In this document: in pieces, positions 47,544 through 53,171 of the stretch
How positions within the stretch are numbered: the stretch's first letter is position 1
Layout of the letters: each line of letters opens with the position of its first letter
Origin: Fimbriimonas sp.
Lineage (GTDB): Bacteria; Armatimonadota; Fimbriimonadia; Fimbriimonadales; Fimbriimonadaceae
Direction: 5' to 3'
DNA length: 64,000 nt
Assembly: GCA_029866005.1 (NCBI GenBank)
Contig: JARXAE010000006.1
Coordinates: forward strand, 21,340-85,339
Translations under genes and position numbers: made by a program
The notes under the pieces: model-generated
Told to the model about the DNA's origin: nothing
Databases searched by the model: none
The model's input: the letters and a program-made list of their open reading frames with translations, nothing else

Positions 47544-48379
47544 GACAGGAAGCCCTCGAAAACATACTCAGCAGGTCCCGTCATCCGGACGTTGCCGCTT
47601 TCCTCATACTCAAGGTGAAGGTCGCCACCTGGGAGATGGTTGAGCACCATGCGATCAGTGAGACCCAACGTCACCGTCGCTCCTATGCACGCGCAGGCCC
47701 CTGTCCCACAGGCTAGCGTGATGCCAGCTCCACGTTCCCAAGTTCGCTGTTTGATCTCAGTACGACTCAATACTTGGACGAAATGAACGTTTGTTCGCTG
47801 GGGAAAGAGGGGGTGATGCTCCAACTGGGGTCCGACTTCTTCAAGCGGAACCGCATCTACGTTTTCAGAGATGATCACGATATGGGGGTTTCCCATACTG
47901 ACGTGTACGGCATGAAATCCATCGTTCAAGTCGATCAGAGCACAACCTAGTGGGAAGGTAGCTTTTCCCATGTCGATAGTTATTGGGGCCGCGGCAACAG
48001 CAACGATGTTCGTTTCTGACTCTAGGGATTCGGCACAGTGGTTAGAACAGCCAGTGGTCGTTACAGTTAATTCTCCAGCTCCGGTCAGAACCGAAAAAGT
48101 GCCGTTTGCATACCCGCGATCAACCGCAAGCCGCGCAAAGCATCGAAGCCCATTGCCGCACATCTCGCTCAGAGAGCCGTCGGGATTTAGCATGGCCATC
48201 TCTAGCTTGTCTTCCTTCCGTAGAACAAAGATCAAGCCGTCAGCTCCAACTCCAAACTTGCGATCGCAAACGGACCGCGCCAATGCGGGAAGACCGGACA
48301 GCGAAACAGAGTCCCGCAGGGTGTCAACCACGACAAAGTCGTTGCCGATACCCTGCATTTTTGTGAAAGGAATTTTCAC
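47540..48379 (-). CDS. dapF: Diaminopimelate epimerase
   Basis: [51 protein letters not shown]. Confidence 0.97.
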
Positions 48380-48651
48380 TCGGAATCTGGTTGCGAATTG
48401 TGGTGGTGGTCGTCGTGCTCGCCGGGGGCACGATAAGTACCGACTGTCTTCGCCGGAACGATGGACGCCACTGCGTGCTTGTAAACAAGCTGTGTGGGCT
48501 TTCCTTGAGAATCGAGAAGAATCGTGAATGCGTCGAAGCCGCGAACATTGCCGCGGAGCTGGACGCTATTGGTGAGATAGACCGTAACACTGACCCCTTC
48601 CTTTCGGACTTGGTTCAGAAACATATCTTGTAGGTTGATTGCCTTACCCAT
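48376..48651 (-). CDS. hfq: RNA chaperone Hfq
   Basis: [63 protein letters not shown], with Sm1/Sm2 and YKHA. Confidence 0.95.
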
Positions 48652-48662
48652 TTAATTATCCT

Positions 48663-49538
48663 TTAATGCATACTCTGAATCCATGCTTGGGTTGCGCCCA
48701 GCGCATCGATTCTGTTGCTAAAGACCTCTAAGTCAGGCTCGGATCGTAGCCAAGTTCGTTGCCGTTTGGCGTAGTTCCTCGTCTCCGCTTCGATGGTCTC
48801 AACCATTTCTTCCTCGGTGATGTCGCCGTAGAGGAAATCGACAATTGCCGTATATCCAATCGCGCGAAACCCGGGGTTTCCTGGTCGGTAGCCGAGGTTA
48901 AGGAGCTCCTTAACTTCATTTACCCAGCCATTTTGCAACATAAGAGACGTTCGTTGCTGGATGTTTAGTTCAGTGTTTGTGACTTCTGGAACAATTGCGA
49001 CCTTTTTCTTACTGAACGGCGGGATAGAAAACCGTATCTTTTTCTTGGGGGCTAGGCATCGCTCCAGGGCCCTGGTGACTCTGATCCGGTTCTTCAGATC
49101 GGTGGTAGCAGCCATTTCTGGGAACTGGGTCTGCAGCTGCAAAACCAACTCATCTTCTGGTCTCTCATTCAACTCGCGTCTTAGCTCTGGAGAAGGGGCA
49201 GGGGAGAGGTCCTGATACTCCTCAATCAGCGCACGGATATACAGCCCGGTTCCACCACACAAGATGACGTTAACATTGTTATTAAAGTGCTCTTGCAGTC
49301 GAGCCGCAGCAAGAAGTACATATTCGCCGACTCCAAACTCCTCATCAGGGTTTTTTAGGTTCAGAAGCTCGTAACGAGTGGTGTCAGTTGGCTTCGCAGT
49401 TCCGATGTCCATTCCTCGGTACATTTGAAAGGCGTCGCCGTTGATGATCGTTGCGTTGAATTTATCTGCGAGTTCCTCGGCAAGAGATGATTTTCCGGAC
49501 GCGGTAGGACCAAGGATTGTGAGAAGGAAAGGGCTGAT
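48663..49538 (-). CDS. miaA: tRNA dimethylallyltransferase; P-loop N-terminus lacks a canonical start codon (ORF-track start is 49424)
   Basis: MYRGMDIGTAKPTDTTRYELLNL... downstream; upstream in frame PFLLTILGPTASGKSSLAEELADKFNATIINGDAFQ. Only non-canonical starts follow the TAA at 49548-49550. Confidence 0.9.
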   Translation of the reverse strand: MSPFLLTILGPTASGKSSLAEELADKFNATIINGDAFQMYRGMDIGTAKPTDTTRYELLNLKNPDEEFGVGEYVLLAAARLQEHFNNNVNVILCGGTGLYIRALIEEYQDLSPAPSPELRRELNERPEDELVLQLQTQFPEMAATTDLKNRIRVTRALERCLAPKKKIRFSIPPFSKKKVAIVPEVTNTELNIQQRTSLMLQNGWVNEVKELLNLGYRPGNPGFRAIGYTAIVDFLYGDITEEEMVETIEAETRNYAKRQRTWLRSEPDLEVFSNRIDALGATQAWIQSMH

Positions 49539-49547
49539 GAACTCAGT

Positions 49548-50939
49548 TTACTTTCTATTCAGTTCTAGCCACAGCTCGGAAGTCCATTCAGCCAAACGAT
49601 CTATGGACTGTCGCTCTTCACCGACGTACTCAAAGTCAATCGTATCGTTGAATGGACTAATCCACTTCTCTAACGGTAGTGCTCTCGCTCCAAGGTTCGC
49701 GCCGAGGATGCTACCGACAGTTGCGCCATTACAGTCGGTATCCAGTCCACACATCACTGCTCGGGTGATTCCCAACTCAAAGTCGCCCTCGCTGAGGAAA
49801 ACTGCCCCAACGCACACCGCCGCATTGTTGATTGAGTGAACACCGTTGTAATGGCCTGTCTTTTCAGCAATGAAATCAAGAAGGCTGTCGAACGTAGGCT
49901 TGGAGGCGCAGAACTCCCGGACCTGAAGGGCAACTAATGCAAGCCTTGATTGAGTCGGGATGAGGTCTAAAGCGCGTCTGAATGACTCCTCCAAAGAGTA
50001 GCGAAATGCACCAGCGATCCATCCAGCAAAGAAGATCTCACTGTACTCTCCGTTCCGCTCGTGGGTGAGTTTGGCGTCTTGTTGGGCGACAAGGGCCGCC
50101 TGATAAGGATCTCCGGCGAACGAGTAAGCCCAACCGTCGGCTCGTATCGCCGCTCCGATCCACTCTCGGTACGGATTCCGCCATTGCCGCATAGCCAAGA
50201 GTTGATCCTCGCTAGCATCTTCATGGAGCCAACCCTGTGGTTTTCCAAAGGCATAGGAGTTAGAGATCGCAGCTTGCTCAGCAGTAAATGTGTGGTTGGG
50301 TAGCCAGTGAGATGCCCAGTACTTGAAGACGTCCTTGCTGGTTGGCCATGAGTAGCTAATGACGCCTGGTTTGGATGTATCTACCCGGCATGCTTGAATG
50401 CGGAGACCCGCAAGAGTGTAACGCAAGTCGTCATCGCTTTGGGCATATCGAATGTTTCCTTTGGTGGAGGGAGGGAAGCGGCAAGGATGACCGGCAAAGC
50501 GCACCATCTCCGCATCGCACAACTGCACATAGTCCCGAAGTGGCCACTGATTCGTCGCCTCAAGAAATGCTCGCAGTGACTTTGGGCGAGCAAAGAACTC
50601 GTGGCACTCGACTGGCTTGCCGAGGATGCACCCCGCTATCCTTCCGTACCATGCACCTCGGATTTGGTCGTCAAGCTCCTCTCGGGTTGGTGTCCACGGC
50701 TGCCAATCATCAGCTGGCTTCGGGATCTCCCAGATGAGCGGCTCATTGGTGGAAAGAGATTGCGGCTCTGGGAGAGCTTCAAGCTCGCTTTCAATCTCGT
50801 GGAGCTCCGAAAAGTCGGCAACGCGGATGCGAGCGAGAAAGTCACTAAGCGCTGGGAATCCTTGCTCGGCTTTGAGCTGAACTTCATCAAGCAAAAGCGT
50901 TCGCAAGTGCTCTGCTGCATACTGCCGACCAAGAGACAT
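49548..50939 (-). CDS. ADP-ribosylglycohydrolase family protein
   Basis: DQIRGAWYGRIAGCILGKPVE; HYNGVHSINNAAVCVGAVFLSEGDFELGITRAVMCGLDTDCNGATVGSILGA. Confidence 0.92.
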   Translation of the reverse strand: MSLGRQYAAEHLRTLLLDEVQLKAEQGFPALSDFLARIRVADFSELHEIESELEALPEPQSLSTNEPLIWEIPKPADDWQPWTPTREELDDQIRGAWYGRIAGCILGKPVECHEFFARPKSLRAFLEATNQWPLRDYVQLCDAEMVRFAGHPCRFPPSTKGNIRYAQSDDDLRYTLAGLRIQACRVDTSKPGVISYSWPTSKDVFKYWASHWLPNHTFTAEQAAISNSYAFGKPQGWLHEDASEDQLLAMRQWRNPYREWIGAAIRADGWAYSFAGDPYQAALVAQQDAKLTHERNGEYSEIFFAGWIAGAFRYSLEESFRRALDLIPTQSRLALVALQVREFCASKPTFDSLLDFIAEKTGHYNGVHSINNAAVCVGAVFLSEGDFELGITRAVMCGLDTDCNGATVGSILGANLGARALPLEKWISPFNDTIDFEYVGEERQSIDRLAEWTSELWLELNRK

Positions 50940-50988: not shown

Positions 50989-52905
50989 TTATGCGTTGAT
51001 CTGAACCATTTCGTACGCTTCGACTCGGTCGCCTTCTTGGAAGTCTTCCCAGTTGGTGAAGGTGATACCGCACTCTTGGCCCATCGTCATTTCGCGAACG
51101 TCGTCCTTGAAGTGCTTGAGGGTCGCAACTTCGCCCTCATGGATGAGATCCTTGCCTCGGTAAATGCGAACCTTGGCGTTGCGGGTGATTTTTCCTTCGG
51201 TGATATAGGAACCAGCGACAATGCCTTTCTTAGAGAATTGCAGTCGCATTCGAATCTCGGCTTCGCCAAGCTCTTGCTCCTCGAACTTCGGAGCGAGCAT
51301 TCCCTTAACCGCCGCCTCAATATCCTCGATCAATTCATAAATGATCGAATAGGTTCGAATTTCAACCTTTCGCTTCTCAGCTTCCTTTCGAGATTCCCCA
51401 TCCGGTTTTGCGTTGAAGCCAACGACGATCGAGTCGGAAGCAGCTGCGAGGTCGATGTCCGCCTTTGTGATCTGACCGACGCCACTGAGGATGATCTTGG
51501 TCTCGACTTCGTCGTTCTTGACCTTCTCCAGCATGCCCTTAACTGCCTCAACCGAACCATGCACGTCGGCTTTGATGATGAGGTTAAGGTTCTTGATCCC
51601 ATCGTCCTGCATCCTGCTTCGCAGGTCACGCAGGGTCATTCCGCGTCCACCATTGGTGAACTCTTTCGCACGTGCCTTTGAAACTCGACTTTCGGCTTCC
51701 ACGCGGGCGGTTCGCTCGTCTGCAAAGAACTCAATCTTGTCTCCGGCCGCCGGCACCTCACTGAGCCCAAGAATCTCCACCGGAGCGGACGGACCAGCAA
51801 AGTCCATCTTCTGGCCACGGAAGTCGGTCATCGCCTTGATGCGACCAAAGGTCTGGCCAACCACAAGGTTATCTCCATTCTTCAGCGTTCCTTCTTCGAT
51901 GAGAAGGGTCGCAACCGGACCACGGCCCTTTTCGAGCTTCGCTTCGACGACGGTGCCTTTCAGCTCTCCGCGAGGGTCGGCCTTGAGGTCCATGATATCC
52001 GCTTGAAGAATGATCAGTTCCAGTAGCTCCGGAACGCCAGCACCGGTAAGAGCCGAGACGTTAGCGGTGATGGTCTGACCACCAAAGGCTTCAGGAATGA
52101 CGTTGTACTCGGTGAGCTGTTGTAGAACCCGATCTGGGTTTGCGCCGGGCTTGTCGCACTTGTTAACGGCAACGATCATTGGGACGTTGGCCGCCTGGAT
52201 GTGCTGAATGGCCTCTTGCGTCTGGGGCATGATTCCGTCGTCAGCCGCAACTACGAGGATCGCGATGTCGGTGACCTGGGCTCCGCGAGCTCGCATCTGA
52301 GTAAAAGCAGCGTGACCAGGGGTATCGAGGAAGGTGATGAGCCCCTCGTCAAGAAGAACCTGGTATGCACCGATGTGCTGAGTAATACCCCCCGCTTCCT
52401 TAGCGGCAACGTTTGCCTTGCGGATGTAATCAAGAAGGGAAGTCTTGCCATGGTCAACGTGGCCCATGATAGTGACGACAGGTGGTCGCTTGACGGCTCC
52501 GCCGACCTTGATTGCCGCCCTTGGGTCGACCTTCGGCTTCGGCTTTGGACCTTCGGCAAGCGTCAGCTCAAATCCATATGAGGTTACGATTCGCCCGGCT
52601 TCCTCTTCGGTGAGCGGGTTGGCAATCGCCTTCATGATCTTGAACTTCGAAATCAAGCTCTTCTGAATCTCTGCCTGGGGAACGCCAAGTGCGTTCGCGA
52701 TGTCGCGGGGAGTGCAGTTGGGCTTGAGGGTGATGACCTTGGAATCCATATGCTCGAGGCAGGACTCCTTAACCATTTCGAGCGTGTCCTTGTCACCCTC
52801 GAACGAGGCACCGTCGTGGTCTAGCCCCAGGTCGTTGAGGACGGTATAGACCTGACCGGGTCGAATTTCGAACTCGGTCGCGATGTCGGCGATGGTGTGA
52901 CTCAT
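50989..52905 (-). CDS. infB: Translation initiation factor IF-2
   Basis: [73 protein letters not shown]. Start [12 protein letters not shown] at 52905 overlaps the ylxR stop. Confidence 0.98.
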
Positions 52906-53171
52906 TGGCTTAACTCCAGTTTGCATGCTATTTCTTGTTTGATGGTTGCCAGCGATGTGGCAGAGACGGCGGAACGAAGGGCTTTCGTAAGCCGTCCGGG
53001 TTTCAATGCCCCTTCGAGGCAAATTGTTGAGGGGCAGAAGTAGGCACTTCGCCCACTTCCGCCCCATATTTGAAGATCTCCAGTTGTGCTGACGCCGAGC
53101 CTAATCAGGCTGGCTTGATCGCGTTTAATTCGACATGAAACGCATGTTCTGGTGACCGTGTGGCTTAACAT
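52902..53171 (-). CDS. ylxR: YlxR-family RNA-binding protein
   Basis: RTCVSCRIKRDQASLIRL; GRSAYFCPSTICLEGALK; between nusA and infB. Confidence 0.85.
   Translation of the reverse strand: MLSHTVTRTCVSCRIKRDQASLIRLGVSTTGDLQIWGGSGRSAYFCPSTICLEGALKPGRLTKALRSAVSATSLATIKQEIACKLELSQ

Follow-up and report, generated by a model that had tools for sequence, protein, structure and literature searches.

Rare start codons of the AUN class have been proven in other bacteria (PMC13009471, PMC9410913). In Escherichia coli, the AUU start of infC leads to autoregulation of IF3 (PMC9410913), and pcnB is described, in reports that cite Binns and Masters 2002, as held low by its weak AUU start (PMC13009471, PMC1780047). 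In Staphylococcus aureus, reporters for cvfC1 (AUU) and ccpN (AUA) gave about 10% of the AUG value, rising for ccpN to as much as 30% in rich medium (PMC13009471). A search for a non-AUG start of miaA returned no relevant report in the searchable literature. The conserved AUC start proposed here for miaA is new in that literature, while conserved rare starts are already known for infC, pcnB, cvfC1, and ccpN.

We analyzed a 64,000-nt stretch of Fimbriimonas sp. DNA (“the window”), in which miaA, encoding tRNA dimethylallyltransferase, follows an ADP-ribosylglycohydrolase-family gene on the minus strand (Table 1). Across the junction the minus strand reads AAT AGA AAG TAA ACT GAG TTC ATC AGC CCT TTC CTT CTC ACA ATC CTT GGT CCT ACC GCG TCC GGA AAA. 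The miaA frame spans 294 codons from stop to stop (48663-49547). As the first-pass annotation had stated, it opens in phase directly behind the TAA that ends the upstream gene (49550-49548), and its P-loop lies ahead of any in-frame ATG, GTG, or TTG. This P-loop, GPTASGKS, occupies codons 13-20. The sequence likewise bears out that the earliest of these in frame is the ATG at 49424, which is codon 42. A standard ORF caller consequently produces a 253-residue protein without the P-loop. In the window genome there is no canonical start in any frame from 11 nt before the ACT codon to 34 nt past its first base. The only near-cognate AUN codons between the stop and the P-loop are the ATC at codon 4 and the ATC at codon 11, two codons ahead of the P-loop.

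The frame scored 180.4 bits against TIGR00174 (cut-off 148.65), with residues 10-272 covering positions 3-279 of the 288-position profile. This is a near-full-length match to a curated family, and Pfam IPPT (PF01715) was matched at 189 bits. In the alignment to the best solved MiaA structure, the AUC-started protein is covered from residue 2 onward, and the N-terminal P-loop is intact provided that translation begins ahead of codons 13-20. A search of the source genome for a second miaA found none, and the frame at 48663-49547 is the sole copy. The most likely explanation, which we hold with a probability of roughly 0.88, is that miaA is an intact gene and would be translated from the AUC at 49538-49536 into a 291-residue MiaA.

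Table 1. Features of the miaA locus and of two further genes with a proposed AUC start (positions refer to the window, except where a contig of the window genome, G000, is given).
Feature	Position	Strand	Evidence
Proposed AUC start codon of miaA	49536..49538	-	Invariant in three species; preceding codons differ
miaA (tRNA dimethylallyltransferase), 291 codons + stop if AUC-started	48663..49538	-	TIGR00174, IPPT, solved MiaA structures
P-loop GPTASGKS	49488..49511	-	Translation; alignment to solved MiaA structures
First in-frame canonical start, ATG codon 42, past the P-loop	49422..49424	-	Preceding codons protein-constrained
AGTAAACTG, containing the TAA of the upstream gene, 5 nt ahead of the ATC	49544..49552	-	Junction alignment; invariant in three species
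ADP-ribosylglycohydrolase-family gene, upstream of miaA	49548..50939	-	PF03747, 116 bits
hfq, downstream neighbor of miaA, ATG start	48376..48651	-	NF001602/TIGR02383
infC	G000:C15:88332-88817	+	L063; relatives L064, L061
MFS transporter (PF07690)	G000:C20:318545-319777	-	L204; relatives L205, L206, L207, L209

To compare starts, we gathered 31 miaA loci from 20 genomes of the genus and from other relatives. The two nearest relatives (L002 and L003) come from separate genome assemblies, and their MiaA proteins share 87% and 81% identity, respectively, with that of the window genome. The first reads TAA ACT GTT TCC ATC AAG CCC TTC and the second TAA ACT GAA CCA ATC AGC CCG TTC. The junction therefore follows one pattern in all three species (TAA ACT Gxx xxx ATC). 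The spacing from TAA to ATC is constant, and no canonical start precedes the P-loop; in none of them does an ATG, GTG, or TTG occur between the upstream stop and the constrained coding sequence. The short motif AGTAAACTG is invariant within an otherwise variable junction, and it is kept even in one species (G001) in which its TAA no longer ends the upstream gene.

Two of the first three codons after the TAA show amino acid replacements among the three species, and codon 4 is ATC in all of them. Of codons 5-20, 3 are invariant, 12 differ synonymously, and 1 carries a replacement; for codons 5-41 the corresponding numbers are 5, 23, and 9. Because codons 1-3 vary in amino acid and codons 5-20 change mostly synonymously, protein constraint thus appears to set in at or just after the ATC at codon 4, a near-cognate codon conserved at the conservation boundary. 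Invariance of the ATC is by itself weak evidence, since ATC is the commonest isoleucine codon of miaA (13 of 19) and four other conserved isoleucine positions are also ATC in all three species. Judged from these alignments, its position at the boundary of constraint is the stronger argument.

Orthologues with a canonical start at this position had been named beforehand as evidence against this reading, and the miaA loci were compared on that point. The two nearest have the ATC described above. Those more distant loci for which starts were listed (around 55% identity or lower) offer a canonical start, with an ATG near that position; in the closest of these, the ATG lies one codon farther from the P-loop than the ATC. 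As an example, the N-terminus of a more distant member of the genus is M-SAPFLIAVMGPT, as compared to I-SPFLLTILGPT in the window genome. A family-wide search of 85 genomes yielded no additional MiaA above 55% identity. The AUC state of miaA thus appears to belong to one small clade, and the three species, forming one clade, would represent one evolutionary event.

Among the 31 loci, the ADP-ribosylglycohydrolase gene precedes miaA only in the three AUC species, so that the altered start codon and the new upstream neighbor occur together. Downstream, hfq and then dapF follow miaA in nearly all relatives. The distance from the glycohydrolase stop to the AUC is 9 nt, and it is 15 nt in G001, where the upstream frame ends AAT TGA AAG TAA and the TGA comes two codons earlier. 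We also observed that the glycohydrolase gene evolves much faster than its neighbors (62% identity to G018, versus 87% for MiaA). Elsewhere in the window, the longest ATG-started frame of infB (encoding IF-2; 50989-53067, minus strand) has an N-terminal extension, and the real infB start probably lies near 52908.

We then carried out a blind scan in which 820 kb of the window genome (2.81 Mb in total) were compared with 1.72 Mb of G018. In only three of the 502 orthologue pairs did both genomes show clear coding sequence upstream of the earliest canonical start. These were infC, miaA, and a gene encoding an MFS transporter, and all three have a conserved ATC at the conservation boundary. The other entries on the scan list were short and offered too few synonymous changes for a judgment. 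A relaxed scan gave no further case among the candidates examined, which had canonical starts at unaligned positions or looked spurious. As both nearest relatives share the miaA pattern and only 3/502 pairs show a pattern of this kind, comparison of the genomes indicates that chance alone does not account for it.

In the same three species as the AUC miaA, infC begins ATC GCA GGA TTT without a canonical start, and its ATC sits behind the Shine-Dalgarno sequence GAGGTGA. Other members of the genus start infC with ATA and, in one case, ATT. The ATC of the MFS gene is kept in five species (the window genome, G018, G002, G010, and G003), none of which has a canonical start ahead of the conserved N-terminus, and the codon before the ATC varies (TCG, CAA, CCC, CCT, or GTC); a sixth species has a different N-terminus. 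Because infC and the MFS gene of the same genome share the feature, they lend support to the AUC start of miaA. The ATC at 49538 was also the option favored by the first-pass annotation, and its conservation in two relatives and the likeness to infC and the MFS gene speak for it. In the window genome, its coordinates place the MFS gene some 58 nt downstream of the preceding frame, which suggests that close coupling is not required for AUC starts in this lineage.

Two other options had been named at the outset, readthrough of the TAA and a sequence error. Readthrough would yield a glycohydrolase-MiaA fusion, and both the in-phase arrangement of the two frames in all three species and the constant spacing from TAA to ATC are in keeping with it. 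We consider it very unlikely, however, as the upstream frame of G001 ends TGA AAG TAA, so that a fusion would require reading through two stops, and as the three codons from the TAA to the ATC vary in amino acid and do not look protein-coding. Moreover, other relatives encode MiaA as a protein of its own, behind unrelated genes. Instead of one leaky stop with constraint on both sides, we thus found a double stop in G001 and unconstrained codons 1-3. Loss of a canonical start through a sequencing or assembly error could be imagined in a draft genome of 38 contigs, but the arrangement recurs, again lacking a canonical start, in two relatives whose genomes were assembled independently. The same error made three times is implausible, and we regard this explanation as scarcely credible.

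It is also unlikely that miaA starts elsewhere, whether at an out-of-frame canonical codon followed by a frameshift, at the other near-cognate codon (ATC codon 11), or at the ATG at 49424, which would leave a protein without a P-loop or a decayed gene. All three species retain the ATG at 49424, which in two of them is the earliest canonical start, and the ATC at codon 11 is likewise invariant. On the other hand, the lack of a canonical start in any frame close upstream in the window genome leaves the frameshift route without a nearby start. The protein constraint on codons 5-41 and the structures of solved MiaA relatives argue against the later codons, since initiation at codon 11 would remove the first strand, and initiation at codon 42 the P-loop as well; those relatives have both elements. 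The ATG at codon 42 is accordingly an unlikely start as judged from the sequence, and decay does not fit the only miaA in the genome.

If translation does start at the AUC of codon 4, the ordinary initiator tRNA, with its CAU anticodon, would pair at codon positions one and two and be mismatched at position three. The product would begin formyl-Met-Ser-Pro-Phe-Leu-Leu-Thr-Ile-Leu-Gly-Pro-Thr-Ala-Ser-Gly-Lys, and the expected N-terminal peptide would be (M)SPFLLTILGPTASGK. In a pattern search, the initiator anticodon arm GGGCTCATAACCC, with a CAU anticodon, was present once each in G000 and G018. There is no indication of a special initiator tRNA carrying a GAU anticodon, the CAU type alone having been found in these two genomes. 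The same search gave one extra match each, GGGCTGATAACCC, in G001 and G008.

No Shine-Dalgarno pairing was seen at miaA (-2.2, +0.7, and -0.4 kcal/mol, as compared to -7.2 kcal/mol at infC); a strong Shine-Dalgarno sequence, common in known rare-start cases though no strict requirement, is thus absent here. In a rough comparison using mechanically taken starts from 820 kb, start regions paired with the 3' end of the 16S rRNA at a median of -3.0 kcal/mol, equal to random positions, which suggests that the source genome makes little use of Shine-Dalgarno sequences. Accessibility of the RNA at the miaA start was unremarkable and no shared hairpin was found. A CTGA/TCAG pairing around the ATC was considered and rejected, as it is possible in two species and absent in the third. 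Given that miaA has no Shine-Dalgarno sequence, ribosomes finishing the ADP-ribosylglycohydrolase gene probably aid initiation at the AUC, a candidate case of translational coupling.

AUC, AUU, and AUA are third-position mismatches that are rejected by IF3. The weak AUC start may keep the level of MiaA low. Since codons of this kind are rejected by IF3, the amount of MiaA may also follow that of IF3. It could be speculated that AUC is a regular, rare fourth start codon in this lineage (probably the genus Fimbriimonas), and that infC, miaA, and the MFS gene form a set united by IF3 discrimination whose members all rise when IF3 falls; we put this forward tentatively and think it rather less probable than its opposite.

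Gene callers limited to ATG, GTG, and TTG would strip the catalytic P-loop from MiaA or label the gene as broken. Through blind comparison, three comparatively supported AUC starts have come to light in a lineage that is not among the usual model bacteria, and this set within a single lineage is the part that may interest specialists. It makes testable the idea that a tRNA-modifying enzyme is tuned via the fidelity of start codon choice.

Compared to the systems described previously, miaA resembles infC with its AUU, AUA, and AUC starts in that an AUN codon replaces ATG, GTG, or TTG, and infC itself has AUC in the same clade. In contrast to miaA, which has no Shine-Dalgarno sequence, infC of this clade has the strong GAGGTGA. 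Unlike the product of infC, MiaA is not an initiation factor, and direct feedback would therefore not be expected. As far as it is described in the reports cited above, pcnB is like miaA in having an AUN start outside translation initiation; its codon is AUU rather than AUC, and its expression has been measured, whereas the miaA start is proposed here from sequence comparison. The S. aureus genes cvfC1 and ccpN are like miaA in that conserved non-canonical starts occur in single genes, and they differ in having extended Shine-Dalgarno pairing, which miaA lacks; its proposed start codon instead follows another gene at a distance of 9 nt.
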